Position numbers and translations under genes: made by a program | Assembly: GCF_964204645.1 (NCBI RefSeq) | Contig: NC_134033.1 | Coordinates: 14,696,155-14,760,154 of the forward strand | Reading direction: 5' to 3' | Length of the DNA stretch: 64,000 nt | Source: Tubulanus polymorphus | Lineage: Eukaryota > Nemertea > Palaeonemertea > Tubulaniformes > Tubulanidae | Shown: one piece after another, positions 3,701 to 63,192 of the stretch | How the letters are laid out: each line of letters starts with the position of its first letter | Position numbering within the stretch: the stretch's first letter is position 1 | The notes under the pieces: generated by a model | What the model was told of the DNA's origin: nothing | Databases searched by the model: none | Seen by the model: only the letters and a program-made list of their open reading frames with translations

Positions 3701-4935
3701 CGGGATGAGCTTCAATGACGTATTTAACGATTGAATGAGTGTAACTGCGCTGCCGCTGAACGGCGTACTACACCGCGGTATATGAGCCAATGAACGGAAA
3801 CCGCGAACTAAGATTTCCACACGTCTCTGATCGGGCCAAGTGTGGCCCGTGTCAAACAGGCATGGGCCTATTTGGCACCGGTGTGAACGGTTGACCCGGT
3901 GGAAAACGTTTCTATGTTCGCGGCTGTAGTTGTTTTTGAACTAAGGGATTTGTAGGTGATACTTCGAATTTGGCTTTATCGTATGACATCGATGTTTTGG
4001 GGATATTTTTCTTAAAACTTTTGAACGCATACCTCAAATTAATCTTAATAGGATCAGAGTGAAACAATGCAGTCTGAATAAGACATCGTTTTTATATCCA
4101 TTTTACACAGTTTTGAAGCATTGCAAAAGTATTAAGTATTCTTTAACTCATTTGAATAGGAGAAAAGAGACTCCATTTTATAATTTAACTTATTTCTAAC
4201 GATATGCCTAACATTTGAAATCATATTTTCAATCCGGAAATTACTTGTCTCGATTGTCCATTCCATTTTTGATCCAGCCGTTGAGAATAAAACGGGCGTT
4301 ATCTAAAGGCTTGGTAAAACGGCGCCATTATCTTCGCGGGTTATCGAAAACTTAAACGCTTTATCTTTCACCTTAACTTTCAATAAATATTTCTTGAAAA
4401 ATGCTAACCACCACCTGAGGTAAATCACCCTCGTGTTCGGTTTAAGCGTCACCAAGCTATCCGAAACGATGCAACAGGCTTTACCTAACGCGCATCCGCA
4501 TTGTGATTGTTTATTCAACTATCATTATCAGAATTCAGCAGAGTTTATTCAATGCTAAAGATGATTTGTTTTCGTGTATTTTCAGGAATGATATTGGGAC
4601 CAACTTCCGGCGCACTCGAGTCGTGTAGAGTGGCGCCGTACGTCAATGTGAATGTACCGGCGATGCGCATGGCGTTCGACAGACTTCAAGCCGTGCACGC
4701 GCCTCATCTGAGCGCATGGGATCCCGCGCATCTACCACTCGTCCATCCGGCACCGTTTCTATTCTATCCACCACCCCACTACGCCATGCACCTGACGGCA
4801 GCGTTTACGGCAGCTGCAGCAGAGAACGCAGCTGCCGGTCTGACGGCGGGTATTACGTCGGTTACCAAAAATTCGAGCATCGCTGATCTGAGACTGAAAG
4901 CTAAAAAGCACGCGGCTACGATCAGATTCCCTTGA
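715..4935 (+). CDS. Shox: Shox-type paired-class homeobox protein, 3' part of gene (exons 715-772 and 4586-4935)
   Basis: This is the C-terminal part of a short-stature-homeobox-type transcription factor, a nuclear DNA-binding protein. The first exon in the window follows an acceptor CAG and reads VWFQNRRAKCRKQESQMQK. That is the end of recognition helix 3 of a Q50 homeodomain, with the intron at the usual ARVQ/VWFQ position. RAKCRKQE rather than RAKWRK is typical of Shox. The exon ends in phase 1 and joins the terminal exon at 4586, which starts GMILGPTSGALE, then ESCRVAPYVN (compare DACRVAPYVN in vertebrate SHOX), then a His/Pro/Ala-rich stretch. It ends in an OAR domain, KNSSIADLRLKAKKHAATI, a few residues before the TGA at 4933-4935. 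The rest of the homeodomain and the N terminus lie left of the window. Identity is based on remembered SHOX sequence; confidence in Shox rather than another OAR class is high. Confidence 0.92.
862..1193. mobile_element. MITE-like element with 16-bp perfect terminal inverted repeats
   Basis: AGGCCTTTTTATGAAC at 862-877 matches GTTCATAAAAAGGCCT at 1178-1193 perfectly in inverted orientation. The 332-bp interior is AT-rich and non-coding and has further internal inverted pieces (AATCGATTATG, ATGACGGATTATGACATAAT). No target-site duplication is certain. It sits in the large Shox intron. Confidence 0.65.
2094..2165 (+). pseudogene. tRNA-Leu-like pseudogene or SINE head
   Basis: The sequence TGGCCGAGTGTCTTAAGGCG has the D-arm/A-box pattern of a tRNA-Leu, and GGTTCGAACCC at 2146-2156 is an intact B box. 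The anticodon arm is reduced to CCGG-TCA-CCGG, with no 7-base loop. The acceptor ends do not pair. It cannot be a working tRNA and is a pseudogene or a tRNA-derived SINE fragment. Confidence 0.6.
2672..2721. repeat. 50-bp perfect palindrome
   Basis: Each half is 25 nt, centred at 2696/2697 (GCTA|TAGC), and matches perfectly in inverted orientation. Beyond it, AAACATTTCA on the left and TGAAATGTTT on the right also pair, so a longer hairpin with an interruption is possible. It is inside the Shox intron. Confidence 0.95.
2811..3324. mobile_element. Non-autonomous, possibly hAT-like element with CAGGG(G/C)CGG ends
   Basis: The left end CAGGGGCGGTTCTAGG and the right end ATCCGGCCCTG are inverted and similar. 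The element has no transposase. It contains the 20-bp tandem array at 3033-3160. Similar ends occur at 18550 and 61906-62193. No certain target-site duplication was found. Confidence 0.5.
3033..3160. repeat. 20-bp tandem repeat, about 6 copies
   Basis: The unit ACAATACCACAACCAAAATC is repeated head to tail with almost no variation. It lies within the element at 2811-3324. Confidence 0.95.
4586..4935 (+). CDS. Shox: Shox terminal coding exon with OAR domain
   Basis: The acceptor is TTTTCAG at 4579-4585. It enters at phase 1 and reads to the TGA at 4933-4935. The upstream in-frame ATG at 4507 lies in the intron and is not the start. Content in order: CRVAPYVNVNVPAMRM, a proline/histidine-rich stretch with FLFYPPPHYAMHL, an alanine run (AAFTAAAAENAAAG), and the OAR box SSIADLRLKAKKHA. 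The OAR domain modulates activation and DNA binding in paired-class proteins. Confidence 0.93.
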
Positions 4936-10840: not shown

Positions 10841-18476
<7,636 letters not shown>

Positions 18477-20619: not shown

Positions 20620-21149
20620 TTATATCTTGAAAATAACAAAAACAAAGGAAATTATGTTAAGGCTGGAGTTGAAAAAGATTGTTTTTATATTTTGAATAGA
20701 AAAACGTAAGAACATTTTCACATATTCAAAGGCCTACCATTTTATTCAACGTCGCTCTGAGCAAGTTCATCCCTTTATTTTTGTTGTGGGGTTTGCTTCG
20801 TTTGACGGCCGCTTGTCTCGAATTTGACACGATCTTCAATAACGAACTCACTCTATGCGCCTTTTTAGCTTGTGATTTGGCGGCTAGTTGATTCTGTAGA
20901 TAGACGATAGAAGATTAACTTATATAGAGAAGAAATGATAGCTTTTGGACCTAGAGACATTATTCGTCAATGTATTCTTCAAAAGGAGTGCTCCTAGAAT
21001 ATGATCATGTATTCAGACATTATTCAGATAAATATATTATTCCAATCATTCCCAGATCCCTTTGAACCGGTACTTAGCCAACGATTTAGACTTACTGTCT
21101 TAGCGGCTGACGGCTTCTGTGACTTTACATTTTGACCAAGCGGCATTCC
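20620..21149 (-). CDS. Giant gene exons 23-25: basic C-terminal tail
   Basis: The exons are 21096-21149 (GMPLGQNVKSQKPSAAKT), 20738-20893 (NQLAAKSQAKKAHRVSSLLK and on to TLNKM) and a last one starting at 20625, which adds only Ile and then TAA (20620-20622). Phases are all 0. The tail is basic. The last exon is short but has a good TTTTCAAG acceptor; confidence in it is lower than in the others. Confidence 0.62.
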
Positions 21150-24100
21150 CTGTGATGGAAAATGACGATCGTAAAGCAAAAACAAAAACTATTTGTAATT
21201 CCCTGATGGCCTGAACTCTTTCAACGATGAATGAATGAATCACCATAATCGATGGGAAAAAATCGAGATTTTAAATGTGGGTTCTTTAAGTAAGAGTAGC
21301 TCCATTTCTATGGGAAGGATACGGTTGAATAATTATTACAGTTACAACGCATTATGTACATCTTCTACCTTGACATCTGCCGCAGTTGCTTTCAATTTTG
21401 CCTCAGGTACCATCTTCATCACCGGTTTGTTGACGGTTACCGATCTATCTCTTTGACCTTTTGGCAACGCAATCGGCATTTTCACTGTTTTGACGACGTC
21501 ATCCAGCTTCTTAGCTTTCTCAGCACCGGTGCTGTTACCAGCTGAGACGTCAGACGTAGCATTTCCAGCAGTGGCGTTTCCAACAGTAGTATTTTCAGCC
21601 GTGGTGTTTCCAGCAGTAGCACCTTCCGACGAAGCATTCTTAGGTTTGAGGCCTTCGAGCTTTTTTCCAAGTTCATCCCGTAGCTCTTGTGGGCAGGGCA
21701 CTGTTAAGCGAATTGTATAACAGAAATAAGCATTTTGCATCCAATGATTGCAGCAGATAAACATTACGAGCTTGTGTACGACGTGTGAAGTTCGTGTCAA
21801 ATCCACTTTGTTCAGATTGTGCAACTTGGGAGTAGATGCAGGAAAATGCAAACCCACTCCGTCTTAAATTGAGCGCAAATTGTTGAGTATGGTTACTTCC
21901 AGATGGAACACGCTATAGACATGCATGTTTTAGCAGCCGATCAACATGCACAGGGTGATTTTTTTTCTATTTTGATGCCATTATCTTTTATACACACGAT
22001 TAAGATCTCTAAAACCAAAAGATATAAGTTAATCTAGTTGTAGTGTAAACGATGATTTGAAAGAACTTACGTTTCATAGAATTTCCTTTGCCTGTGGGTA
22101 AATCGAAACAGAAAAGACAGTAACAGGTGAGACTGGTTTAAATAAGACAAAAAACGAAGACTCAATCGAGTGACCCAGTGCTATGCTTACTTATGCAGAG
22201 ATCTCCGTACAGATTCCAACCGCGTGGACACTTGAATTCTAAATAATATAGAAACATCAGAAATTATTATTCAAATGTCTTTGTTGTAGTTTAATCTTTC
22301 GGAACCATACGCACTGTAACATTTGCCGTCATGTCTAATCCATGAAACTTCACACGTCTTCTCTCCCTCCTTTATTGGTTGTTCTAAATGGAGAAAATTA
22401 CATTACGCTGCTACAAACAATTCTGACTAGTTTGCAAATCGGTACAAATTTTATGATATCAATTATGCCACAGACTATATGACGAGATGCATAAATAAAT
22501 GCACATTAAGGACATACCTTTGGCGCACATGCCGTTCATTGGTTTGTAGAGTGGATCACAGGAGTATACTATAAATGATAATACCAGTAATAAACATATG
22601 GATTATAATAACTACGTAATGCAAAATGCAAAAGTTGATAAATTAACGATTCATTTCAAGTAGTGCTTCCTTTATAAGCTTGCTATACTTAGATTACTTA
22701 ATCGACCTGGAAAAATAATCACCATCTGCTAACTCGGATATGGGTCTACGTAAGGTTGTGATGATTTTGATACTTACCAAACGTCGATTTACTCACGAAT
22801 CCGTACATCGCGTTCGCATTTGGCTTTTCTGAAATAGGAGAGTGTATATTCAACGACGATCCAATTTTGCACAATGACATCAGTGAAATATTTACCTGAA
22901 ATGGCATAATTAATTCTTTTCGAAACTTAATTGGTTAACAACGCAATGAAAGTGTTTTATAGGCCTAATAAACTACTAGGTGTTAACCCAATACCATGAA
23001 AAATACCGATATACAGACAATGACAAAATAAACGATAAATGATTAAGATCGAGAGAATAGATAAAATACCTGAACATTTATCGAATCCTACCATGATTGA
23101 TCCCAATGGACAGACACGTTCTGAAATTTAGATACAAAACAAACCATATAATTCGACATCGGTAATGCCACAATTAAAAGGGCCCTAAAATCTTGGCGTG
23201 AAAAAATAAGAAAAAAGCAAACCGCTGTCAATTCAGTTACGTGGTTTTGATAGGCGGAGGTGAATAAATAAATCATTCGATCACTCTGCTTTACCAAACA
23301 GAATTTTTGATTCCCATTCAGAAAAAGCCAGTAATTTTTTTCTCGTTAATTGCCTTTCCACCTGGTCTGGGCGTTATCCATGGCAAACGGAGGCCCCAAA
23401 TCATACTTACTTATGCATGCTCCATCGATAAGATGCCATTTAGGTGGACAATCCTTCCAGGAGCGCGGTAGAGAAAATCCTAAAATAAACAGTGATCAAA
23501 GAAGACATTTATATCTGATAAGCTTGATTGAATAGAAACAGGTTGGGTCGAAGATTCATTCACTTACGCGCTGCACAGAATCTCTTATTCAGTGGTTGAA
23601 ATCCATCAGGGCAATTAACTACAACAAACGAATGAGTATCAGTGTCAATATAAATTAAATATTCGGTAGTATCTCGAAATCTTCAAATTTCAAGCTTGTT
23701 TTACTAACGTTTTAATTTTGATGTACAATGTTCGTTTTCTGAAATGTTAAGTTCAAGTATTGAATGTGGGATGATAAAAACAGGTGAGCTGAAGTAACAG
23801 TAAAACCAGCAGGCCTGGGCGAACATACCTGTGCAATGTATACCAAGACAATCAAGGATCTTTCTCTGGTAGGTCGTAAATTTAGAATACGCCTTGTCCA
23901 TATCAGCCAGTTTACCCCCTTCCGATTTCAATTTTTCATATTCATCTTTAGCAGATGCATATTGTTTCATATTACTATCTGTCAGACACTTAAAAGGACT
24001 CGCTAGTGATGGGGGCTTAGGCTTCCCTGCCGATTTGGACTTTTCAGCAGCTTCTAATTTCTTTTCTTCCTTCTTTTCATCTTTGGCGGCTTCTTCGACT

Positions 24101-27100
24101 TTTTTCTTATCCTCGGTGACTTCTTTTTTAACTTCTTCAACTTTTTTCTCAGCCCCCGGCTTTCCTTCGGCCTTTTCTTTCTCAGCTTCCTTGAGTTTAT
24201 TTTCCTTTTCTTTGAGTTTCTCAGTTTTCTCCTCTACTTTCTTCTTGGCTTTTTCTGTTTTTTCCTTTTTCTCCTCGACTTCTTTTGCGGCTCCTTTTTT
24301 GGCTGGAGCTGGAGCACCGGTTTCCTCTTTCTTTTTGGCCTCGTCCAATTTCTTTTCTTCTTTCTTTTCATCTTTGACGGCTTCTTCGACTTTTTTCTTA
24401 TCCTCGGTGACTTCTTTTTTAACTTCTTCAACTTTTTTCTCAGCTCCCGGCTTTCCTTCGGCCTTTTCTTTCTCAGCTTCTTTGAGTTTATTTTCCTTTT
24501 CTTTGAGTTTCTCAGTTTTCTCCTCTACTTTCTTCTTGGCTTTTTCTGTTTTTTCCTTTTTCTCCTCGACTTCTTTTGCGGCTCCTTCTTTGGCTGGAGC
24601 TGGAGCGCCGGTTTCCTCTTTCTTTTTGGCCTCGTCCAATTTCTTTTCTTCCTTCTTCTCATCTTCGGCCGCTTCTTCGACTTTTTTCTTATCCTCGGTG
24701 ACTTCTTTTTTAACTTCTTCAACTTTTTTCTCAGCCCCAGGCTTTCCTTCGGCTTTTTCTTTCTCAGCTTCTTTGAGTTTATTTTCCTTTTCTTTGAGTT
24801 TCTCAGTTTTCTCCTCTACTTTCTTCTTGGCTTTTTCTGTTTTTTCCTTTTTCTCCTCGACTTCTTTTGCGGCTCCCTCTTTGATTGGAGCTGGAGCACC
24901 GGTTTCTTCTTTCTTTTTGGCCTCGTCCAATTTCTTTTCTTCCTTCTTTTCATCTTCGGCGGCTTCTTCGACTTTTTTCTTATCCTCGGTGACTTCTTTT
25001 TTAACTTCTTCAACTTTTTTCTCAGCCCCAGGCTTTCCTTCGGCTTTTTCTTTCTCAGCTTCTTTGAGTTTATTTTCCTTTTCTTTGAGTTTCTCAGTTT
25101 TCTCCTCTACTTTCTTCTTGGCTTTTTCTGTTTTTTCCTTTTTCTCCTCGACTTCTTTTGCGGCTCCCTCTTTGATTGGAGCTGGAGCACCGGTTTCTTC
25201 TTTCTTTTTGGCCTCGTCCAATTTCTTTTCTTCCTTCTTTTCATCTTTGACGGCTTCTTCGACTTTTTTCTTATCCTCGGTGACTTCTTTTTTAACTTCT
25301 TCAACTTTTTTCTCAGCCCCCGGCTTTCCTTCGGCTTTTTCTTTCTCAGCTTCTTTGAGTTTATTTTCCTTTTCTTTGAGTTTCTCAGTTTTCTCCTCTA
25401 CTTTCTTCTTGGCTTCTTCTGTTTTTTCCTTTTTCTCCTCGACTTCTTTCGCGGCTCCTTCTTTGGCTGGAGCTGGAGCACCAGTTTCTTCTTTCTTTTC
25501 ATCTTTGACGGCTTCTTCGACTTTTTTCTTATCCTCGGTGACTTCTTTTTTAACTTCTTCAACTTTTTTCTCAGCCCCCGGCTTTCCTTCGGCTTTTTCT
25601 TTCTCAGCTTCTTTGAGTTTATTTTCCTTTTCTTTGAGTTTCTCAGTTTTCTCCTCTACTTTCTTCTTGGCTTTTTCTGTTTTTTCCTTTTTCTCCTCGA
25701 CTTCTTTTGCGGCTCCTTCTTTGGCTGGAGCTGGAGTGCCGGTTTCCTCTTTCTTTTTGGCCTCGTCCAATTTCTTTTCTTCCTTCTTTTCATCTTTGAC
25801 GGCTTCTTCGACTTTTTTCTTATCCTCGGTGACTTCTTTTTTAACTTCTTCGACTTTTTTCTCAGCCCCCGGCTTTCCTTCGGCCTTTTCTTTCTCAGCT
25901 TCTTTGAGTTTATTTTCCTTTTCTTTGAGTTTCTCAGTTTTCTCCTCTACTTTCTTCTTGGCTTTTTCTGTTTTTTCCTTTTTCTCCTCGACTTCTTTTG
26001 CGGCTCCTTCTTTGGCTGGAGCTGGAGCGCCGGTTTCCTCTTTCTTTTTGGCCTCGTCCAATTTCTTTTCTTCCTTCTTCTCATCTTCGGCCGCTTCTTC
26101 GACTTTTTTCTTATCCTCGGTGACTTCTTTTTTAACTTCTTCAACTTTTTTCTCAGCCCCCGGCTTTCCTTCGGCCTTTTCTTTCTCAGCTTCCTTGAGT
26201 TTATTTTCCTTTTCTTTGAGTTTCTCAGTTTTCTCCTCTACTTTCTTCTTGGCTTTTTCTGTTTTTTCCTTTTTCTCCTCGACTTCTTTTGCTGCTCCTT
26301 CTTTGGCTGGAGCTGGAGCGCCGGTTTCCTCTTTCTTTTTGGCCTCGTCCAATTTCTTTTCTTCCTTCTTTTCATCTTTGACGGCTTCTTCGACTTTTTT
26401 CTTATCCTCGGTGACTTCTTTTTTAACTTCTTCAACTTTTTTCTCAGCCCCAGGCTTTCCTTCGGCCTTTTCTTTCTCAGCTTCTTTGAGTTTATTTTCC
26501 TTTTCTTTGAGTTTCTCAGTTTTCTCCTCTACTTTCTTCTTGGCTTCTTCTGTTTTTTCCTTTTTCCCCTCGACTTCTTTCGCGGCTCCTTCTTTGGCTG
26601 GAGCTGGAGCACCAGTTTCTTCTTTCTTTTCATCTTTGACGGCTTCTTCGACTTTTTTCTTATCCTCGGTGACTTCTTTTTTAACTTCTTCGACTTTTTT
26701 CTCAGCCCCCGGCTTTCCTTCGGCCTTTTCTTTCTCAGCTTCTTTGAGTTTATTTTCCTTTTCTTTGAGTTTCTCAGTTTTCTCCTCTACTTTCTTCTTG
26801 GCTTTTTCTGTTTTTTCCTTTTTCTCCTCGACTTCTTTTGCGGCTCCTTCTTTGGCTGGAGCTGGAGCGCCGGTTTCCTCTTTCTTTTTGGCCTCGTCCA
26901 ATTTCTTTTCTTCCTTCTTCTCATCTTCGGCCGCTTCTTCGACTTTTTTCTTATCCTCGGTGACTTCTTTTTTAACTTCTTCAACTTTTTTCTCAGCCCC
27001 CGGCTTTCCTTCGGCCTTTTCTTTCTCAGCTTCCTTGAGTTTATTTTCCTTTTCTTTGAGTTTCTCAGTTTTCTCCTCTACTTTCTTCTTGGCTTTTTCT

Positions 27101-30100
27101 GTTTTTTCCTTTTTCTCCTCGACTTCTTTTACTGCTCCTTCTTTGGCTGGAGCTGGAGCGCCGGTTTCCTCTTTCTTTTTGGCCTCGTCCAATTTCTTTT
27201 CTTCCTTCTTTTCATCTTTGACGGCTTCTTCGACTTTTTTCTTATCCTCGGTGACTTCTTTTTTAACTTCTTCAACTTTTTTCTCAGCCCCAGGCTTTCC
27301 TTCGGCTTTTTCTTTCTCAGCTTCTTTGAGTTTATTTTCCTTTTCTTTGAGTTTCTCAGTTTTCTCCTCTACTTTCTTCTTGGCATTTTCTGTTTTTTCC
27401 TTTTTCCCCTCGACTTCTTTCGCGGCTCCTTCTTTGGCTGGAGCTGGAGCACCAGTTTCTTCTTTCTTTTTGGCCTCGTCCAATTTCTTTTCTTCCTTCT
27501 TTTCATCTTTGACGGCTTCTTCGACTTTTTTCTTATCCTCGGTGACTTCTTTTTTAACTTCTTCAACTTTTTTCTCAGCCCCCGGCTTTCCTTCGGCTTT
27601 TTCTTTCTCAGCTTCTTTGAGTTTATTTTCCTTTTCTTTGAGTTTCTCAGTTTTCTCCTCTACTTTCTTCTTGGCTTCTTCTGTTTTTTCCTTTTTCTCC
27701 TCGACTTCTTTCGCGGCTCCTTCTTTGGCTGGAGCTGGAGCACCAGTTTCTTCTTTCTTTTCATCTTTGACGGCTTCTTCGACTTTTTTCTTATCCTCGG
27801 TGACTTCTTTTTTAACTTCTTCAACTTTTTTCTCAGCCCCCGGCTTTCCTTCGGCTTTTTCTTTCTCAGCTTCTTTGAGTTTATTTTCCTTTTCTTTGAG
27901 TTTCTCAGTTTTCTCCTCTACTTTCTTCTTGGCTTTTTCTGTTTTTTCCTTTTTCTCCTCGACTTCTTTTGCGGCTCCTTCTTTGGCTGGAGCTGGAGTG
28001 CCGGTTTCCTCTTTCTTTTTGGCCTCGTCCAATTTCTTTTCTTCCTTCTTTTCATCTTTGACGGCTTCTTCGACTTTTTTCTTATCCTCGGTGACTTCTT
28101 TTTTAACTTCTTCGACTTTTTTCTCAGCCCCCGGCTTTCCTTCGGCCTTTTCTTTCTCAGCTTCTTTGAGTTTATTTTCCTTTTCTTTGAGTTTCTCAGT
28201 TTTCTCCTCTACTTTCTTCTTGGCTTTTTCTGTTTTTTCCTTTTTCTCCTCGACTTCTTTTGCGGCTCCTTTTTTGGCTGGAGCTGGAGCACCGGTTTCC
28301 TCTTTCTTTTTGGCCTCGTCCAATTTCTTTTCTTCTTTCTTTTCATCTTTGACGGCTTCTTCGACTTTTTTCTTATCCTCGGTGACTTCTTTTTTAACTT
28401 CTTCAACTTTTTTCTCAGCTCCCGGCTTTCCTTCGGCCTTTTCTTTCTCAGCTTCTTTGAGTTTATTTTCCTTTTCTTTGAGTTTCTCAGTTTTCTCCTC
28501 TACTTTCTTCTTGGCTTTTTCTGTTTTTTCCTTTTTCTCCTCGACTTCTTTTGCGGCTCCTTCTTTGGCTGGAGCTGGAGCGCCGGTTTCCTCTTTCTTT
28601 TTGGCCTCGTCCAATTTCTTTTCTTCCTTCTTCTCATCTTCGGCCGCTTCTTCGACTTTTTTCTTATCCTCGGTGACTTCTTTTTTAACTTCTTCAACTT
28701 TTTTCTCAGCCCCAGGCTTTCCTTCGGCTTTTTCTTTCTCAGCTTCTTTGAGTTTATTTTCCTTTTCTTTGAGTTTCTCAGTTTTCTCCTCTACTTTCTT
28801 CTTGGCTTTTTCTGTTTTTTCCTTTTTCTCCTCGACTTCTTTATCGGCTCCCTCTTTGATTGGAGCTGGAGCACCGGTTTCTTCTTTCTTTTTGGCCTCG
28901 TCCAATTTCTTTTCTTCCTTCTTTTCATCTTCGGCGGCTTCTTCGACTTTTTTCTTATCCTCGGTGACTTCTTTTTTAACTTCTTCAACTTTTTTCTCAG
29001 CCCCAGGCTTTCCTTCGGCTTTTTCTTTCTCAGCTTCTTTGAGTTTATTTTCCTTTTCTTTGAGTTTCTCAGTTTTCTCCTCTACTTTCTTCTTGGCTTT
29101 TTCTGTTTTTTCCTTTTTCTCCTCGACTTCTTTTGCGGCTCCCTCTTTGATTGGAGCTGGAGCACCGGTTTCTTCTTTCTTTTTGGCCTCGTCCAATTTC
29201 TTTTCTTCCTTCTTTTCATCTTTGACGGCTTCTTCGACTTTTTTCTTATCCTCGGTGACTTCTTTTTTAACTTCTTCAACTTTTTTCTCAGCCCCCGGCT
29301 TTCCTTCGGCTTTTTCTTTATCAGCTTCTTTGAGTTTATTTTCCTTTTCTTTGAGTTTCTCAGTTTTCTCCTCTACTTTCTTCTTGGCTTTTTCTGTTTT
29401 TTCCTTTTTCTCCTCGACTTCTTTCGCGGCTCCTTCTTTGGCTGGAGCTGGAGCGCCGGTTTCCTCTTTCTTTGTGGCGCCGTCCAATTTCTTTTCTTCT
29501 TTCTTTTCATCTTTGACGGCTTCTTCGACTTTTTTCTTATCCTCGGTGACTTCTTTTTTAACTTCTTCAACTTTTTTCTCAGCCCCCGGCTTTCCTTCGG
29601 CTTTTTCTTTCTCAGCTTCCTTGAGTTTATTTTCCTTTTCTTTCAGTTTCTCAGTTTTCTCCTCTACTTTCTTCTTGGCCTTTTCTGTTTGTTCCTTTTT
29701 CTCCTCGACTTCTTTTGCGGCTCCTTCTTTGGCTGGAGCTGGAGCGCCGGTTTCCTCTTTCTTTTTGGCCTCGTCCAATTTCTTTTCTTCCTTCTTTTCA
29801 TCTTCGGCGGCTTCTTCGACTTTTTTCTTATCCTCGGTGACTTCTTTTTTAACTTCTTCAACTTTTTTCTCAGCCCCCGGCTTTCCTTCGGCTTTTTCTT
29901 TCTCAGCTTCTTTGAGTTTATTTTCCTTTTCTTTCAGTTTCTCAGTTTTCTCCTCTACTTTCTTCTTGGCATTTTCTGTTTTTTCCTTTTTCTCCTCGAC
30001 TTCTTTTGCGGCTCCCTCTTTGGCTGGAGCTGGGGCACCGCTTTCTTCTTTCTTTTTGGCGTCGTCCAATTTCTTTTCTTCCTTCTTTTCATCTTTTGCT

Positions 30101-33100
30101 GCATCCTTAACGTCCTCTTCAGCTTTTTTGATCTCTTGTTTAACCTCTTCAACCTTTTCTTTGGCCCCCGGCTTTCCTTCAGCGGTTGCATTCTTTGCTT
30201 CCTCAAGTTTTTCTTTCTCATCATTCAATTTTTCAGTTTTCTGTTCAACTTTTTCTTTTGCCTTCTCTTTTTCTTTCTCTTCTTTTTCAACCTCTTTTTT
30301 GGCTTCTTCTTTTGACGGTGTTGTTTTGCCAGTTTCATTTTTTTCCATTCCTTTTACTTCGATTATTTCTTTTTTCCCTTCTTTTTTTACCTCTTTCTCT
30401 TTCTTTTCAGCTGTCTTGATTTCTTCATTAGATTTTGCCTCCTCTTTTTTAAGATCCGCCATTTCTTGTTTTATTTCTTCACTCTGAACTTTGTCCGTCG
30501 TTTTATTCGATTGCTTTTCTTTAACAATATCCATCTTTATTTTAACTTCCTCTTTTTTAACTTTGGCATTTTCTGCTTCTGCTTCTGCCGCATCATCTGC
30601 CTTTTGAGCAGCGTCTTTAGCTGTTTCATCTGCTTTTTTCAATCCTTCCTTCACAGCAACCTTTAATACTTCTTTTTTTATTTCAAGTTTGTCTTCGGTT
30701 GCCTTATCACCAGTTGCCTTTGCAGTTTTGATGTCCTTTTCGATTGTTTTCAAATTATCTTTCTTTTCCTCTACCTTTTTATTTGTTTCCATGGACTTAT
30801 CTTTACTTTTCTTAGCTTCTTCTTTTGTGTTCTCCTTGTTATCTTTAGCCTCTACAATAGCTTTTTTGATAACTTTTTCAGCATCTTTTGCAGTCTTCTT
30901 AGCCTTTTCCTGCAGGTTAGCTGCTTTTTCCTCTTGCTTTTTGTCGCCTTTAGATGCTGCTCCCTTCATCATTTTATCGGCTTCAGTTTTCTCTTCTTCT
31001 GCCTTTTTCACAAGATCTTTGGCTTGTTCAGCATCTTTCTCGGCTGTGTCCTTTGTCTTTGTTCCTGTAATCTTTTTAGCAGCCTCATCAATATCTTTTT
31101 CTTCTGTTTTTACCACTGCAACCCCCTCATTTGCTTTTGCCACTGACTTTTCTAAGGTTTTAGTGAGTTGCTTCTCGGCGTTTTCGATGGCTGTTTTATC
31201 TCCTTTCTTTTCAACTTTGTTAACATTTGCTTCTGCTTTCTTTAATTCTTTCTTTTCTTCTTTTACTTGTTTTTCCTCTTTTTTCACTTTATTCATTTTC
31301 GTTTTTAACTAAAAAAAAATTCAAATATCAAGTAATGTTCAACCTAATCGTTTAAACGAAGGATCTCAAAATTTCAATAAATGTGTCAATGACAACTCCT
31401 ATTCTTTCTTACCCCCACCCAGCCCTTTCATTACACATTTCCGAAGTTGGAACTATCGATTTTTTAATGAGAGACCGCCGACAAACATAAGCCCTCACGA
31501 ATGCATTTTGATCACAATTTTGATTGAAAATTACATAGAAACATTATAAACAAATTGTGAAAGAGCTCTAATAGACTATAAACAAATGCGCCTCCACAAA
31601 TCTCTCGTAAAGGGAGCATTTGTTTTCAAACATCTTTTTAAATTAATGTAAGAATCATATTGCATCGATAGTTCGGCATTCGTGATCATTCCGCGGGAGG
31701 CCTTCGATCTCCCACCCACTTCCGCAAGTTATACTAATTGGAACAACTACCGAAATTTTGAGATGCTCCTTAATGAATGTATGCTGCGGGATTGCATAAC
31801 TCCTACCTTACTACTTTCCTTTTTGGCTTTTTTATCCTGCTTTCTGGCTTTCTTTATTTCCTTTTTCAATTTCTTAATTTTTCTCTTCTGACCTTTGCCT
31901 GGTTTTTCCTTCAGTTTCACAAGTGCTTCTTTTTTATTTTTTATTTCTTTTTTTAATTTGTCTTCGTTGCCCTTTGCTGTTTTCAGTGTCTTCTCGATGG
32001 CATCTTTACTGCCTTTCAAACTCTTTTCTGCTTGAACAACCGATTTTTCTGCACTTTCTTTTACTTTAGCCTTTGTTTCCGCTAACTCCTCTTTCATTTT
32101 GTCTGTCTTATTCTTACCACCTAAAATACAGATAATGTATATGATTATCTATTATCATCGTCGCAAAATGAAAATATGAATTGCTTACCTTTATTCTCTG
32201 CCTCGCTTATTTCTTTCTCGATTACTTTGGCTTTAGCCAAACTTTCCTCACTTTTAGTTATTTCTTTTTCGGTATCTTCAGCCTCTGTTTTGGAAGCTGC
32301 GGATTCCTCCTTCACGACCTCTGCCTTATCCTTTGCTAATTTCTCTTTCGCACTTTCTGCATCCTTTTCAGCTTCCTGAGCCTTATCTTCCTTTTTCTCG
32401 AGCTTTTCATCTAACTTCTCCACGGTTGTGTTGTCCCCCTTTTTTTCTGCTACAGCTTTCTCTTTCTCAAGAGATTTAACTTCGGCTTCATCTTTTTCCT
32501 TCTCAGCATTTGCCTTTTCACTCTTTTTATCTGCATCAGAAATCTTTGTTGCTTCGGCAAGCTTCTTAACATCTTTGTTAGCATCAACTGCTGTTTTGTC
32601 TGCTACATCAGCTACTTTTTTCATTTCGTCATTCATGACATTTTTAGCTTTATCAGCCTCGGATTTTGCTTTCTCTGCTGCTGCTTTCATTCCAGGATCT
32701 TTCGTTTCACTTGCCTTTTTCTCGAGGTCTGATGCCTCTGTTTCTTTCTTAACAAGTTTTTTGGCTTTTTCGTCCGTCTCCTTTTTCGTCTTTTCGAGGA
32801 CATCTTCCTCCTTTTTAGCTTTCTTTAGTGCCACTTCGGCTTCTTTAACAACTTTGCCCTTTTCTTTAGCTATGTCTTTTTCAGCTTTAACTTCTTCCTT
32901 CGCCCCTGGTTTCGTATCACCTTTTTCTTTAGCAGCTTCAGTGGTAGCCACTTTTGCGTCTGACTTGGCTTTATCCAATGTATCTTTTGCAACTTTAATC
33001 TGCTCCTTTACGGTATCGTTTGCTTTATCTAATCCCTTTTTGACCTCGTCTACGCCTTTCTTGATCGCCTCCGTTTCTTTCTCCTCTTTATCTTTCTTTT

Positions 33101-36100
33101 CTACCTCAAGCTTCACTACTTTAGCCGCATCACCTTTAGTTTTAGCTTCAACAATCTCTTTTTTTATGTTACTAACCTCAGTTGCAGCTAAATCTGCTTT
33201 GTTGGCTGATTTCTTAGCTGCCTCGGTATCCTTTTCTGTGTCTTTCTTATCTGTTTTTGCTCTGTTTTTATCTTCTTTTTCTTTCTTCTCAGGGTTAACA
33301 GTCTCTTTTGCGGTCTTTTCAACCTGAAAAAGTGTCTCAATGGATATAGCAAATACTCTCTTTAAAACGATAGAAGATAAAAGAATATCTTACCGACATG
33401 ACTGATTTAGCAACCGATTTCATTGAAGCGATTGCTTTTTCTTCTGTATCTTCTGAAGTGGTCTTCAGTTGTTTTCCTTCGGGTGATTGTTTACTCGCTG
33501 ATTTCAACTGTTTTTCAAGGGCATCGGCTTTTTTCAAAGCACTCTCAGAGACCTTCGCATTATTTGCAAGTTCTGCTTTCTTCTTTTCCGTAGCTTTTAC
33601 TTTATTCTCCCTGGCTTTAGAATCCTCAGCAAGTTTCTCTGCCTTTTCTTTTAGGTCTTTTGCTTTCACATCATCGCCATCTTTCTCTGCTTTTTTAGCA
33701 TCTTTTAAATTCTCATCAGCCTTCTTTTTGTCATCTTGTGCTTTTTTCTTTTCAATTTTTTCACTTTTATCTGCCACCTTTGCTGCTGACTTCACAGCAT
33801 CCAACTGATCTTGCAAAGCCTTACTTTTAGAATCTTTTTTCTCTTTCTCCGCCTGCTGCAGTTTGGTTTGTACTTCACCTACAGTCTTTTGATCACCTTT
33901 TCCTTGCTTGACTTTAATGGTTACTTCCTGTAATTTATCTTTCAGTTTATCAACCTTTTTAGCTGTCATCTTAACAGTTTCAGCACTTTGAGATGCCTTT
34001 TCCGCTTCAGATTTAGCTTTGGATGCCTCTTTTTTAACCTCTTGCTTCTCAACCTTTTCTGCTACTTTAGTTTTTTTGTTTGCCATTGTGTTCAACTCCT
34101 TTGAGCTTTCAGCAGCCTTTTCTGCTTTTACTTTCAGCAAAGAATCATTTGAAGCTTTTGCATTTTCTGCCAATTTCTTTGCCTTTTCCTCTTCGGTTTT
34201 TGCTTTTGATTTGAGATCGGTTGCCTCCTTCTTCAATTCAGTGGCTGGGACGTTTGTAAGGCTTGCGATGTTTGAAATTGCCGGTTTAATAGTTTTTTCC
34301 ATGTCTTTAGCGTAGACTTTAATGTCTTTCTTTATTTTTTCTCTCTCATTCTTCATACCGATTCGTAGCGACTTTTCTTTTTCTTTGTCACCTATTATGT
34401 AGATCACGCATTACATACAGCAACATTAAAAGTACTTGTTATTATACTTACTAAAATTGGCATGTAAGAAATGCTCAAATTAGCAGATTGATTACTCGAA
34501 ATATCAATTAAAACATATATATCGAATAAAACATACAAATATATAATCTGTGTACTAAAGATAATTGTAAAAGTCCTACAATAGAATTTCATATGATAAA
34601 ATGTTTTATTACATTACTATTAGCCAACAGCCAAAACGTTGTGGTTTCGTTGTAATAAATTTTATCAAATGAAATTCTATTGTGGGACTTCGATTAAATA
34701 TGAATAAAGACATGGTGGATACCTTTGGTTTCGGCATCTTTTGCAGCAATTTCGTCATCAGAGATTTTCTGTGCAAGTTTCTGCACCTCCTTTTCCTTTT
34801 TGGCTATTTCATCTAATTGCTTTTTCACATTCACCGATGATTTCTTCTTTTCTTCAGTTTCCTTTTTCATTTGTTCGGATTCAGTTTTATCTTTCTTACC
34901 AATTTCTTTTTGTGTTTCATCTTTGGATTTTGCAAGTTCCTATTAAAAATGTGGTTAAGATATATTATTCATACAATAAATGAGACAACCACAGTATTAT
35001 CTGTAACCATGTTTACCTTGGCTTCCAAATCCTTATTAGTTGCTTTTGTTTCTATCTTTGAAGTTTGAACTTCAAGAAGCTTGAGCAGATTTTCAAAAAC
35101 AAGTTTTGCCTGTAGCAAAGCCGCTTGATACACTGTAATTACATGGATTATCAATTTCCGTCGCCCATCCCGCTTTGCATCTAGTTTAGCTTTGGCTTGT
35201 GTGATGAGTTTCTGATCATTCTTTGCAGTTGCTTTTTTAAGTTCAGCCCGTGCATCAGCCACTTCTGTTTCCTCTTTCTCGTACTGAATCCAAGAAGTAC
35301 ATAATATACTAGTGTTGGGGTAGAAACATCGAAGCACGAACATTTTTAATGATAAAAATCTTATTCTACCTTATTTAAATCGTCTACGGTTTCCTTTGTT
35401 TTCTTCTCTACCTCCACAACATCGTGCTCAACCCTTTTAGCTTTATCTTCCTTCGCCTGCGTGTCTTCATCGTCGATTTCGTCTTTCTTTTCAGCTTTGT
35501 CATCTTCAAGTTTTTTTACCTCTCGCTTTAACTCTTTCGATTCTTTTTCGGTTTTTGAATCATTTGATTTACTGGATTTTTCTTCAACCTTGGCGAGTTC
35601 ATCTTGCTTTGACTCGATTTTATCATCAATCTTCTTTAGATCTTTCTTCTTTTTATCAACTTTCTCCTTACTTTTCTCTTCTGACTTTACGTCATCAGCT
35701 TTCTCTTTAACCTGTTTCTCCATTACAGTAGCCTTTTCAGCTGTGAGTTTTACTTTCTCCTTCTTGATATCAGCCTTTTTCTTTACTACCTCAGCTTCCT
35801 TTGCCTTAAGGAATATCAAATTGAAATGAGTACATTAAAAATGTCACAACTAAATAAAAAATTGTATTTTATGATCAGTATAACTAATAAATCACATCTT
35901 TACCTTGCCACTGCTCTTTAATTCAGCAGCTTTTTTCTGCAGTTCTAAAGCTTTTTCTTCATCCTTCTTCTCCTTGTCTTTTATATTTTCTACTTTCTTC
36001 TCTAACTTCTTAACTCCTTTCTCTTCTTCTTTAATGACCTTTGCCTTTGCTTTTTTCATATCGTCTTCTGTTTTTTCGACATCCTTAGTTTTTGATTTCA

Positions 36101-39100
36101 CTTCATTTTCCAATTTGTTTGCAATCGCTTTGTCTTCAGGTTTTCCTGTTTTCAGTGCTTTAGCTTTGGCATTGCTAGCTTTTACTTCAGTTTTTTCAAG
36201 ATTTTTCTTCTCCGATTCTTCCTTAGCCTTGCTTTCTTCCACCTTTTTCTCTGCTTGCTTCTGTTTTTCGACTGTTACCTTTTCGTCTGCCTTTTCTTTT
36301 TTGCTTGCTAGTTCCTCTTTCTTAGTTTCCAATTTTGATAGATTTTTCTTTATGTCATCAGCTTTTTTATTTGCATCTGGTGATCCTTTCGCGGCAGCTT
36401 TTTCTAAGTCAACTTCTTCCTTTTCAATTTTCTCTTCGGTTGCTTTTTCCTCCTTGTCAACCTTTTTCACTTCTTTTAGGTCCTTTGCTACTGTTTCAGA
36501 TGATTTCTTTTCTTCCTTTGCTTCTTTAACAAGCTTCTTTGAATCAGCCTTCATTTTATCAGCATCGGTCTTTGCCTTATCAGCTGCTGCTTGAGCCTGG
36601 GCAGCCTTTTCTTTGTTGCCTTTATTAGCTTCATCCTTTGCCTTTGCTTCCATTTTCAAAGCTTTTGTTTCTTCTGTCTTTGCTTTTTGTTCGTCTTTCT
36701 TTGCTTTTTCTTCAAGGTCTTTTGCACCCTTCTTTTCAGCTACTTCCTTAGTTTTTTCCGCCTTTTCAGATTCTTTTTCCTTCTCTTTTACCTCTCCTTT
36801 AACTTTTGTCACCTCCTTTTTGGCCTCTTCCACCTTTGCTTTATCTTCGGGTTTATTTGATTCTGCAGCCTTCGTTTCTGCTTCGGCAACTTTTTTAGTT
36901 GCATCTATTTTCTTCTTTTCAGCGGCCTTGAGATCATCATCAATTTTATCTGATTTATCTTCTTTTGACTCTTTCTTGCTTTCCTTTTCAGTTGCTACTT
37001 TATTTTTGTCCTCTTTGGTTTTTTCAATTTTCTTTTCAATTTTCACCTCAGATGCTTTAAGGGCTTCCACCTTCGTTTTATCCGCTGGACTTCCAGATGC
37101 GTTTGCCTTACTTTCAGCTTCTTCTATTTTCTTTTCAATGTCAACCTTCTTTTTTTCTTCGCCCTTAATTTTTTCATCAGCTTTCTTTGCTTGTTTTTCG
37201 ACATCTTTGTCACCTTTTTTCTCAACATTATTTTCAGCCTTCTTCAACTCTTTGACCTTTGCTTTGTCTTCCGGCTTTCCAGATTCCTTTGCTTTCTTCT
37301 CTGCCTCTTTAACCTTCTTCTCTGCCACCTTCTTCTCTTTTTTATCTTCCTCGATTTTCTTAGGTGCTTCCGCCGTTTCATTTTTCGTTCCATTTTCAGC
37401 TTTTTCTACTGCCTCATCTTTTTTCTTTTCAGCATCTTCTGCTTTTTTTTCTAATTTCTTTACTTCGTTCATGTCCTCTTGTTTCCCTGATTCCGAAGCT
37501 TTTTTCTCAGCCTTCTCTAGTTTTGAGGCAAGAACCTCGACCTTCTCTTCGGCCTTCTTCTCTGATTTAGCAGTCTCATTTCCAGCTTTTGTCTCATTTG
37601 TGGCAGATCCGCTGGTTTCAGCAGATGGTTTCGTCTCATTTCCAGCTTTCGACTCATTTTTAACAGACTCACTTGTTTCAGCAGAAGGTTTAGTCTCATT
37701 TCCAGTTTTCGTCTCATTTTTGGTAACCTCGCTTGATTCAGCAGTTGATTTTGTTTCATTTTCACCTTTTCCTTTCTCGCCTACTTTTGCTTTTTCCTTC
37801 ATCTCTGTCTTTTTAGATGCTTCGTCTAATTTACTGGTTGCTTTAACAACCTTTTCTCTTTCTTCTAGTGCTTTTTTCGTATTTTCCTTGATGTCTTTTT
37901 CTGCTTCGGTGGCTTTCTTTGTCATATCAGCTTTGCCCCCTTTTGATTTGATTAGATTTATAAGATCTGTAGTCAAATCAGCCAGGAACTGCATCTTCGT
38001 TGTAATCTTTGTTGTCATATCATCTAATTCCAATGCCTGTAACAATCATGTATGACGTACATTTTCGGAATCTTGTAGAACATAGTGTGTTGTAATTGTA
38101 TCAGGATTTTACCTTGTTATCGGCAGCAACTTTTGTTTCTGCAGCCACCCAGGTATGAGCCATATCCTCAGGCGATTTAGATTTTTCTGCTTTTGTTTTC
38201 GCCGCATTGTAGGCAACCTCTAATTGCTTGGATTGATCCCTGACACTAGCCACTTGTTTTGAGAGTTCTTTGACGATTCCAAGTAAAATACCAACCTTAA
38301 AGAATTTAGATTAACAATGACTTAGGCCTACTCATATCATACAACTTGTTAGAATGATCGACTCAAGTCTCAAACTAGTCTCTTAATGTATTTGAACTTA
38401 TCAGAATGATGTCACAATACACTTCCTGCCTTACGTTTTTCTTGGTTTGTTGAATTTCTTTCAATAGCTTATCTGGATCTTGTGTTTTGTAAATCTTCAT
38501 CTTTTCTTCTTTTTCCTTTTGTAATTTGACAACGTTCATCATCATCCAGCCTTCTCCCAAAACTGAAACGAACATTTCGATAATATTTCGACTTAATACA
38601 TATTTACTTTCTGGTAACATACACCGGAGAATATGAATTGTAATTGAGCACGAGTCATCAATTGAGGAACGTGTGCAGGAAAACTATTAACAATCAGAGA
38701 TGCACCATCTATAATGAAGCTACCTTTTGTACATTGTTTACGTGTCTGCGTGAGGCTTACGTCAGGAAATTTCACTCCAGTGTTGACTACCGTACCAGCA
38801 CTCTTAGTAGCATTAGTTGAAGCATCTACAAATGGCATATTCTTATGACTTAGTCAGATAAAACGTATTATGAAATAATTCACCATCAACATTATGATAT
38901 TGTAACAAATGCAACAAAGATCAGTAATATATTTGCAAATGGTTTGCATTTTTCATCGTCTTAAATCAATCGCGATACGTAAGAATCGTGTCTTTTTATT
39001 GATAATTACCGGTAATAACGACGCGTTCGCATTGTCCTTTAGAGTCCAGTTTATATCCGGTCGAACACTGTATAGCAGGCTTCATCATCGCAGCATCTGT

Positions 39101-39399
39101 ATATGAACATGAAGTATCCCGTCATAAAAAAATCATTCCGGTACAGTAATACAGTTACATTACATAACTTTGGTACAGTCATCTAATATGGCAATTTTGC
39201 TGTTCTTATGATCTAAAATTTGCTCTGCTTATTGAACTGACTAAAAACAACAATAGCGAATCGATTCTTTTCTTTAGGGTGATATTTTACTGTAGACCTG
39301 TAGAATTTGGCCCTGTACATCTATCATTTGTTTACCTTTTGCAGAGGAAACTGCAGCTGAGGAGATGACTAGCATCAGCACTAAGCCAAGCCTTGTCAT
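20620..39399 (-). CDS. Giant secreted Lys/Glu-rich repeat protein with two-cysteine modules (25 coding exons, 4,866 aa)
   Basis: I do not recognise the family. Exons (high to low): 39336-39399, 39010-39096, 38625-38825, 38435-38562, 38113-38295, 35904-38036, 35370-35804, 35017-35283, 34723-34939, 33394-34391, 32189-33323, 31807-32120, 23829-31308, 23568-23618, 23411-23479, 23070-23120, 22778-22828, 22518-22568, 22315-22383, 22191-22238, 22071-22091, 21369-21700, 21096-21149, 20738-20893, 20620-20625. They sum to 14,601 nt with every phase matching. Layout: signal peptide (1-20); a short two-Cys module (about 25-50); a segment with few cysteines to about 160; predicted Lys/Glu/Ala helix or coiled coil (about 160-4500), including a 97-aa tandem array (about 2410-4480); two-Cys modules in small exons (about 4500-4690); an Asn/Thr/Ser-rich sequon cluster; and a basic tail ending in M-I. 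It is probably extracellular, perhaps a matrix, mucus, adhesive or other structural protein. That role is a guess from composition. Confidence 0.85.
21369..21700 (-). CDS. Giant gene exon 22: Asn/Thr/Ser-rich, probably N-glycosylated segment
   Basis: The exon enters at phase 1 (L-P-CPQELRDELGKKLEGLK). It then has a cluster of N-x-T/S sequons in a small-residue background (NASSEGATAGNTTAENTTVG, then NATAGNATSD, then NSTG), then a basic segment. The donor is AAG|GTAGAA. If this donor is not used, reading through adds VEDVHNAL and a stop at 21342, so an alternative C terminus is possible. Confidence 0.78.
22071..23618 (-). CDS. Giant gene exons 14-21: small phase 1-1 exons, mostly two-cysteine modules
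   Basis: The exons are 23568-23618 (NCPDGFQPLNKRFCAA), 23411-23479 (DCPPKWHLIDGACI), 23070-23120 (VCPLGSIMVGFDKCS), 22778-22828 (EKPNANAMYGFVSKSTF, no Cys), 22518-22568 (SCDPLYKPMNGMCAK), 22315-22383 (TCEVSWIRHDGKCY), 22191-22238 (KCPRGWNLYGDLCI) and 22071-22091 (SKGNSMK). All are 51, 69, 48 or 21 nt and symmetric phase 1-1. The usual pattern is one Cys pair per exon, spaced C-x8-11-C with an aromatic in the middle. They look like duplicated mini-modules. I know no named domain of this size with certainty. Confidence 0.82.
23829..31308 (-). CDS. Giant gene exon 13: 7.48-kb exon carrying the 97-aa repeat array
   Basis: The exon has 2,493 codons plus 1 nt. The acceptor TTTTTTTAG precedes TTAAAAACGAAAATG, and the donor is ACAG|GTATGT. 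The N-terminal ~350 residues are non-repetitive K/E/A-rich sequence. The middle ~2,070 residues are the tandem array. The last ~70 residues (SLASPFKCLTDSNMKQYASA, then RKILDCLGIHCT) are a different, Cys-containing segment. The frame continues past the donor only in intron sequence. Confidence 0.88.
24040..30245 (-). repeat. Tandem array of 291-bp (97-aa) coding repeats, about 21 copies
   Basis: The unit encodes KKVEEKTEKLKEKENKLKEA, then EKEKAEGKPGAEKKVEEVKK, then EVTEDKKKVEEA, then DEKKEEKKLDEAKKKEETGA, then PAPAKEGAAKEVEEKKEKTE. It has two breaks, GKPGAE and TGAPAPAKEG, between charged helices. Most units are 291 bp. Three units (starts near 25398, 26529 and 27660) are 258 bp because an 11-residue KKLDEAKKKEE is missing. 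Only a few residues vary (AVKDE/AAEDE, APAKEG/APIKEG/APAKKG/TPAPAKEG), and codon choice is nearly identical between copies. The first copy (29955-30245) is the most diverged. Confidence 0.95.
31807..35804 (-). CDS. Giant gene exons 7-12: charged coiled-coil region
   Basis: The exons are 35370-35804, 35017-35283, 34723-34939, 33394-34391, 32189-33323 and 31807-32120. All have GT-AG boundaries and matching phases (0-0, 0-0, 0-1, 1-0, 0-1, 1-0). Together they give about 1,122 residues, nearly all Lys/Glu/Ala/Asp/Thr, with almost no Cys, Trp or Tyr. Exon 8 is less charged (KLIIHVITVYQAALLQAKLV) and may break or pair the helix. Exon 12 is very basic (KRKIKKLKKEIKKARKQDKK). Confidence 0.83.
34571..34690. 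mobile_element. 120-bp MITE with about 32-bp near-perfect terminal inverted repeats
   Basis: The left arm AAGTCCTACAATAGAATTTC and on to GATAAAAT is matched by the right arm ATTTTATCAAATGAAATTC and TATTGTGGGACTT, with about two mismatches. It lies in the intron between giant-gene exons 9 and 10. Confidence 0.8.
35904..38036 (-). CDS. Giant gene exon 6: 711-codon Lys/Glu/Ala-rich region with an N-glycosylation sequon cluster
   Basis: This is one 2,133-nt exon (phase 0-0). It starts ALELDDMTTKITTKMQFLAD. Near its N-terminal end it has about three short repeats of the type NETKPSAETS(G/E)S with N-x-T/S sequons (NET, NES). Long K/E/A-rich helical sequence follows, with regular motifs such as AEKKxxESGKPEDKAKVxELK that differ from the array in exon 13. 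The composition suggests a single helix or coiled coil. Confidence 0.85.
38113..38825 (-). CDS. Giant gene exons 3-5: N-terminal region with few cysteines
   Basis: The exons are 38625-38825, 38435-38562 and 38113-38295 (phases 1-1, 1-0, 0-0). Exon 3 contains a Thr/Val/Ser-rich segment, one clear Cys (RKQCTKGSFIIDGASLIV) and a hydrophobic stretch (AQLQFIFS). Exon 4 starts VLGEGWMMMNVVKLQKEKEE and begins the charged helical composition. Exon 5 reads VGILLGIVKELSKQVASVRD and looks like an amphipathic coiled coil. No named domain is recognised. Confidence 0.78.
39010..39096 (-). CDS. Giant gene exon 2: N-terminal two-cysteine module
   Basis: This 87-nt exon enters and leaves at phase 1. It codes for DAAMMKPAIQ and then CSTGYKLDSKGQCERVVIT. 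The C-x2-G-Y-x7-C pattern matches the modules near the C terminus of the same protein (CPDGFQPLNKRFC, CPRGWNLYGDLC). The two ends therefore share one small disulfide-module type. Confidence 0.8.
39336..39399 (-). CDS. Giant gene exon 1: start codon and signal peptide
   Basis: The ATG is at 39397-39399 on the - strand. The peptide MTRLGLVLMLVISSAAVSSA has a short basic start, a hydrophobic core and small residues at the expected cleavage site, followed by K. The donor is AAAAG|GTAAAC (phase 1). An acceptor-like TTTTCTTAG lies just upstream (about 39413-39421), and a donor-like CAGAG|GTAAAC near 39535. A non-coding first exon with a small intron in the 5' UTR is therefore likely. Confidence 0.85.

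Positions 39400-42905: not shown

Positions 42906-63192
<20,287 letters not shown>

Follow-up and report, generated by a model that had tools for sequence, protein, structure and literature searches.

The cohesive protein Mlig-ap1 of a flatworm is a giant of 5,407 amino acids (aa), secreted, highly charged and rich in lysine with a cysteine-rich part, for which its authors found no homologue; lysine/arginine-rich regions with an isoelectric point (pI) above 14 are located at both of its ends, and it contains lectin, VWD and EGF domains (PMC6410801). The egg capsule proteins of gastropods are secreted as well and have coiled-coil helical regions with linkers between them and head and tail domains (PMC13052691), and octovafibrin from the egg tethers of octopus assembles end to end via terminal domains placed around a rod of repeats (PMC10336842). 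Here we describe a predicted gene of the nemertean Tubulanus polymorphus which can be compared with all three systems. It is located on the minus strand of a 64,000-nucleotide (nt) stretch of DNA, hereafter the window (assembly GCF_964204645.1, contig NC_134033.1, positions 14,696,155 to 14,760,154), and all coordinates below are window positions unless a contig is named.

The predicted product resembles Mlig-ap1 in its giant size, its lysine richness, its cysteine-rich part and its orphan status, with secretion being a prediction here. It differs in that the middle of the protein is formed by a rod balanced in lysine and glutamate, in its pI of 9.0 and in that no Pfam domain was found in the pieces scanned. 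With the egg capsule proteins of whelks it shares the plan of a helical coiled-coil rod with head and tail ends, as judged from the description of those proteins and from prediction for ours; the egg capsule proteins are, however, far smaller, and the 4,866 aa of the present product, its tandem 97-aa units and its exon-encoded cysteine modules set it apart. Octovafibrin also has a repeat rod between terminal domains, but its rod consists of 29 EGF domains instead of helix and its terminal domains are C-type lectins, and for the nemertean protein end-to-end assembly is only proposed. All three are used as working analogies and no membership in any of these groups is claimed. Giant lineage-specific secreted proteins are already known as a kind; the present combination of parts is unusual, as far as our limited searches reach.

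Gene model

On balance we incline to the view that the window holds a gene for a giant secreted structural protein without a detected paralogue, which would consist of an extracellular helical rod with ends crosslinked through cysteines. A signal-like start, a cysteine-pair module, the rod, a string of cysteine modules, a sequon-rich stretch and a basic tail follow each other in the predicted sequence. A preliminary description of the window had proposed one gene of this size, which was reproduced when the splice sites were picked anew from the open frames of the minus strand, the end coordinates and totals of the earlier model being known beforehand. The re-derived model has 25 exons between positions 39399 and 20620, 24 introns which all show GT-AG borders and consistent phases, and a coding length of 14,601 nt with the sole stop at its end, corresponding to 4,866 aa plus the stop. 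The predicted product has a mass of 545 kDa, a pI of 9.0, 28.1% lysine, 20.5% glutamate, 19 cysteines and 26 N-x-S/T sequons. Its parts are as follows.

39336..39399, minus strand: exon 1, signal-peptide-like start MTRLGLVLMLVISSAAVSSA
39010..39096, minus strand: exon 2, N-terminal cysteine-pair module CSTGYKLDSKGQC, phase 1-1
38625..38825, minus strand: exon 3, N-terminal region with one cysteine and one sequon, phase 1-1
38435..38562, minus strand: exon 4
38113..38295, minus strand: exon 5
35904..38036, minus strand: exon 6, start of the KE-rich rod, with 60-nt NETK sequon repeats and diverged hairpin repeats (residues 366-640)
35370..35804, minus strand: exon 7, rod
35017..35283, minus strand: exon 8, rod, interrupted near residue 1121 by an atypical hydrophobic stretch
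34723..34939, minus strand: exon 9, rod
33394..34391, minus strand: exon 10, rod
32189..33323, minus strand: exon 11, rod
31807..32120, minus strand: exon 12, rod
23829..31308, minus strand: exon 13 (7,480 nt), rod, repeat array and first C-terminal cysteine segment (3 cysteines)
24010..30021, minus strand: tandem array within exon 13, 21 units (17 of 97 aa, 3 of 86 aa, one degenerate last unit)
23568..23618, minus strand: exon 14, cysteine module CPDGFQPLNKRFC, 51 nt, phase 1-1
23411..23479, minus strand: exon 15, cysteine module CPPKWHLIDGAC, 69 nt, phase 1-1
23070..23120, minus strand: exon 16, cysteine module CPLGSIMVGFDKC, 51 nt, phase 1-1
22778..22828, minus strand: exon 17, 51 nt, phase 1-1, without cysteine
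22518..22568, minus strand: exon 18, cysteine module CDPLYKPMNGMC, 51 nt, phase 1-1, by eye the counterpart of exon 14
22315..22383, minus strand: exon 19, cysteine module CEVSWIRHDGKC, 69 nt, phase 1-1, donor gtgcgt, by eye the counterpart of exon 15
22191..22238, minus strand: exon 20, cysteine module CPRGWNLYGDLC, 48 nt, phase 1-1, by eye the counterpart of exon 16
22071..22091, minus strand: exon 21, uncertain mini-exon of 21 nt
21369..21700, minus strand: exon 22, one cysteine, NTT/NAT sequon repeats
21096..21149, minus strand: exon 23
20738..20893, minus strand: exon 24, basic tail
20620..20625, minus strand: exon 25, 6 nt (isoleucine and stop), may not exist

Secretion had been proposed from a signal peptide together with cysteine pairs and sequons, and corresponding elements were recovered, the first of them as a signal-like N-terminus: residues 1-19 form the most hydrophobic 19-residue window of the whole protein (mean 1.63, closely followed by the stretch in exon 8 with 1.61), cysteine pairs are present at both ends, and sequons are present as well. 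Purines make up a fraction of 0.727 in exons 6 to 12 but of 0.480 in the seven introns which lie between exon 6 and exon 13, and this switch supports the borders of those exons.

It is conceivable, if unlikely, that the exons belong to two or more genes, one being a gene for the rod, whose product would stay inside the cell as KE-rich helical proteins usually do, and the other a small secreted gene which owns the signal peptide. In a survey of yeast and human, proteins with single helices were enriched in RNA- and cytoskeleton-related terms, which fits such a division, and the words "secreted" and "extracellular" are absent from its main text (PMC5812594). Donor sites agree with the consensus at only 4-6 of 7 places, a weak point of the model, and AATAAA occurs in introns 2 and 9, while intron 12 is the longest with 498 nt. 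However, every intron is short (62-498 nt, median 136.5), and the sequons are concentrated where the rod starts and again after the cysteine string. Moreover, exon 13 joins the repeat array and the first three C-terminal cysteines in one open frame without any splice; the rod and the first part of the cysteine end therefore belong to one protein whatever the other splices may be.

Other weak parts of the model are exons 21 and 25 and the stretch in exon 8 that is out of character, and the 3' end is ambiguous among exons 22, 24 and 25, with read-through of exon 22 ending in VEDVHNAL-stop and read-through of exon 24 in VGL-stop. Judged from the sequence, the gene is very probably real.

Cysteine modules and search for relatives

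Exons 14 to 20 have lengths of 51, 69, 51, 51, 51, 69 and 48 nt and are all in phase 1-1. One C-x(10-11)-C pair is found in each of six of these seven mini-exons (not in exon 17), with four of the pairs starting with CP, and exon 2 holds a module of similar look; across the seven cysteine modules the two cysteines are the only invariant columns. By length, phase and inspection by eye, unscored, exons 14-16 and 18-20 look like a duplicated three-exon cassette. Exon 17 has the length and phase of its neighbours and may be either a degenerate module or a false exon.

The region was also scanned for phase-1 exons of 40-75 nt between AG and GT which contain a cysteine pair. Six were found in the 2,129-base 3' region, five of them exons of the model and one unused (22474-22415), while exon 19 does not pass the filters of the scan. 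None was found on the opposite strand, and 300 dinucleotide shuffles gave a mean of 0.03 and a maximum of 1. Among 60 tiles taken from both strands of the window the mean was 0.13, including the tile of the cysteine region with 5; three other tiles hold one each.

Two unlike sequon-rich repeats are located near the ends of the rod, NTT/NAT at 21556-21621 (exon 22) and GNETKPSAETS at 37572-37769 (exon 6), suggesting that the rod might carry glycosylated collars.

For the Pfam searches the termini and pieces of the rod from exons 6, 8, 11 and 13 were used. For exons 2 to the start of 6 and the end of exon 13 to exon 20 without exon 17, no match exceeded its cut-off at expectation values (E) of up to 10, the best reaching 14.1 bits against a cut-off of 28.8. 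The cysteine string matched the EB module with 7.5 bits (cut-off 24.3) and FOG_N with 10.7 bits (cut-off 27), neither of them as a complete domain; the likeness to these two, scored below the cut-offs, is a short hairpin look of the type C..G[FWY]...C. The first hairpin of C-type lectins has this look as well. No EGF, EB, C-type lectin or other Pfam cysteine domain scored above its curated cut-off in the pieces scanned. Exon 6, most of exon 11, three array units and the first 429 residues of exon 13 gave nothing at E up to 0.01, and exons 20-25 had no match. The piece of exon 8 with a few residues beyond it gave four matches, all below the cut-off, the best being MSS51_C (E 0.011, 15.8 bits, cut-off 27).

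Against the sequences of the PDB, the C-terminus gave a best E of 0.13 (MAK16) and the N-terminus four matches with a best E of 0.059 (an SMC protein), none of them convincing, and three array units gave none at E up to 0.001. The earlier assignment to an unknown family thus holds within these comparisons, which included a profile search with the terminal cysteine segments. In the literature, no protein of this build was named among the matches listed.

The genome assembly searched for paralogues comprises 267.8 Mb in 77 contigs, with the window on contig 9 (16.5 Mb), and the queries covered the C-terminal piece, exons 3 to the start of 6, a rod piece and the repeat unit, exons 1-2 and 21-25 being left out. 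All 7 matches of the C-terminal query are within the gene itself, and so are 4 of the 5 matches of exons 3 to the start of 6, the fifth being on C1 at E 0.09 with two stops. A rod piece of 333 residues matched only itself at E up to 1e-6 among the best 121 of 1,130 candidates, which were scored. Of the 25 matches to the repeat unit, 22 are inside the gene, and the other 3 are located at a distance of about 1.2 Mb on this contig (contig 9:15922426-15923020; 311 bases at 86% identity and smaller pieces). As two of these three contain stop codons, the distant fragment is taken to be a decayed copy. The status as an orphan is limited to Pfam, PDB sequences and the genome of the species itself.

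Near the decayed copy, the minus strand of contig 9:15919286-15921349 contains a 688-aa open frame which consists mostly of glycine-rich repeats of the GGNAGGGGAYGG type and is perhaps another structural protein gene.

The rod and its repeats

The K/E-rich rod comprises about 4,260 residues. In its older part (residues 226-2483) 52.6% of the residues are charged and only 7 of 2,258 are F, W, Y or H; in the array (residues 2484-4480) 65.5% are charged, none of the 1,997 residues is F, W, Y or H, and the net charge is +22. Opposite charges are spaced in excess in the older rod, from D/E to K/R at i+3 (z 5.1) and from K/R to D/E at i+4 (z 5.4), and in the array from K/R to D/E at i+3 (z 11.5, from copies which are not independent). 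The rod is therefore similar to stable single alpha-helix (SAH) domains, which are rich in charged residues with an excess of opposite-charge pairs at i+3 and i+4. The SAH type is a stable monomeric helix without a hydrophobic seam; in the repeat unit a weak seam is present. The hydrophobic residues have their strongest periodicity at 3.46 residues in the array, and the values for the older rod are 3.62 and 3.34, these two without shuffle comparison.

The 97-residue unit consists of two helix-like stretches of 42 residues (A and B) which are split by GKPG and GAPAPA, and these breaks point towards helical hairpins or a segmented coiled coil. Heptads of the coiled-coil kind are present, if weakly: the best registers of A and B are 58% and 67% hydrophobic at positions a and d, which exceeds shuffled sequences (A, P 0.0048; B, 0 of 5,000). 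Because of the hydrophobic stripe and the turns every 40-50 residues, a coiled coil or hairpins are favoured over a SAH. The preliminary description had regarded the rod as mostly single helix or coiled coil; the charge spacing and the hydrophobic periodicity agree with this in part, whereas the breaks at GKPG and GAPAPA speak against one continuous helix; in place of a single helix, the weaker reading of hairpins or coiled coil is preferred.

Diverged repeats which turn at an SGKPEDK-like motif stand out in the older rod only between residues 366 and 640; four of the five self-matching windows with z above 5 (of 61 windows in total) are located there, and the fifth is at residue 1626. A global period of 79 residues, which had been seen by eye, was rejected (best z of the glycine spacing 2.7, below the 95% limit of the shuffles of 3.9). 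Exon 8 (35017-35283) interrupts the KE-rich rod with a hydrophobic, purine-poor stretch (LIIHVITVYQAALLQAKLVF), which might be an interaction patch, a membrane-like segment or the result of a wrong exon border. A candidate for a hidden in-frame intron in this exon turned out to be an artefact.

With regard to the mechanism, we propose that the protein is exported and that its rod forms amphipathic helices which are interrupted at GKPG and GAPAPA, resulting in helical hairpins or a segmented weak coiled coil. Molecules might then associate side by side via the sparse V/L/A stripe and K-E pairs. The cysteine modules would form disulfide-stapled hairpins, and these modules or odd cysteines may link the molecules end to end, giving rise to a hydrated and extensible fibre, gel or glue. 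As an alpha-helix rises by 0.15 nm per residue, the rod would be about 640 nm long if fully extended as helix.

Several observations weigh against this proposal. The heptads are weak, with just over half and two thirds of the a/d positions hydrophobic, and the period of the array can fall only on a harmonic of the 97-residue unit, since 3.46 is 97/28, while those of the older rod come without shuffles. In addition, the spacing of glycines by about 79 residues does not reach significance across the older rod as a whole, only 5 of its 61 windows match themselves above z 5, and the patch in exon 8 (1.61) is unlike a pure polyampholyte rod.

A related explanation is that the protein is a cohesive component of a glue or mucus whose function depends on its polyampholyte charge instead of a coiled coil, through ionic cross-links of the kind proposed for Mlig-ap1. 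This seems quite unlikely to us. While the charged residues of the array with their net +22 would suit such a component and giant adhesive proteins without homologue are known (PMC6410801), very basic lysine/arginine-rich ends like those of Mlig-ap1 were not found, nor were VWD, lectin or EGF domains detected by Pfam in the pieces searched.

We give little credence to a mineral-associated or cuticle matrix protein, as of shell, chaeta or tube. Charged repetitive secreted proteins are common in mineral and cuticle matrices, which is nothing specific, but lysine and not aspartate dominates the composition of the product, and a literature query on shell matrix proteins brought up only a mantle expression atlas.

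The array itself appears to be young, because over their first 234 nt the units match their best partner with 98-100% identity and long blocks recur exactly, one of 817 nt with a lag of 2,262 and one of 677 nt with a lag of 3,975; its copy number depends on the assembly. Among the 17 full units of the 21 (the three of 86 aa and the last, degenerate one were excluded), 136 pairs gave proportions of synonymous (pS) and nonsynonymous (pN) differences of 0.101 and 0.016, with pN/pS being 0.15. The variable columns number 6, 6 and 18 by codon position, and 17 silent changes stand beside 16 replacements, while 18% silent changes would be expected from random changes and 34% from transitions. Over stretches of 288 nt of these 17 units, the predicted frame has a pN/pS of 0.12, compared with 1.08 and 1.29 for the two remaining frames of the sense strand and with 0.84, 0.24 and 2.52 for the antisense frames, two of which have no stop; these values are a comparison among frames and carry no P value because copies arising by unequal crossing-over are not independent. 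As the opposite strand is also open over 2,204 aa (S/F-rich, 23873-30487, plus strand), which is a by-product of the purine-rich codons, a long frame is by itself weak evidence. That the array is simple purine-rich repeat DNA which is open by chance and encodes no functional protein is nevertheless hardly credible: the open opposite strand, the stop-free antisense frame at 0.24 and the youth of the array are in line with it, but the predicted frame has the lowest pN/pS and the exon chain is coherent with symmetric cysteine mini-exons.

Returning to the secreted structural protein, we tentatively raise the possibility of a new class of extracellular fibre proteins, defined by a rod of polyampholytic helical hairpins which exceeds 4,000 residues and by ends made of minimal disulfide modules, with one stapled hairpin per phase-1 exon of 48-69 nt, exon duplication, and growth of the rod by very recent tandem duplication of 97 residues. 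If expressed and secreted, the product would be a natural, very long and highly charged helical material with built-in end cross-linkers and a model for tough hydrated biomaterials, and it would show how animals invent structural proteins by tandem growth of helical units and shuffling of mini-exons. Such genes may easily be masked as low complexity or split in automatic annotation.

Neighbouring genes and other features

15261-18476, plus strand: two exons of a homeodomain gene with OAR motif, which we take to be Arx/aristaless-like, adjoining the 3' end of the giant gene
4507-4932, plus strand: a second exon with OAR motif, probably from another paired-class homeobox gene
43259-51302, minus strand: four EGF-domain exons just upstream of the giant gene, with a possible transmembrane exon by eye

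Across the genome, the ligand-binding family of nicotinic receptors has at least 145 matches, many of them on C5 and with clusters on C7, a large receptor expansion. These matches, like the homeodomain, OAR and EGF exons, mark the DNA as that of an animal, a bilaterian and probably a spiralian by our reading. No COX1 match was found in the assembly; the annelid linker and mollusc haemocyanin families gave no match either, which carries no weight because their controls were equally empty. The window also contains a GAGA microsatellite of about 40 copies (44352-44513) and a 20-base minisatellite of 6.8 copies (3026-3161).

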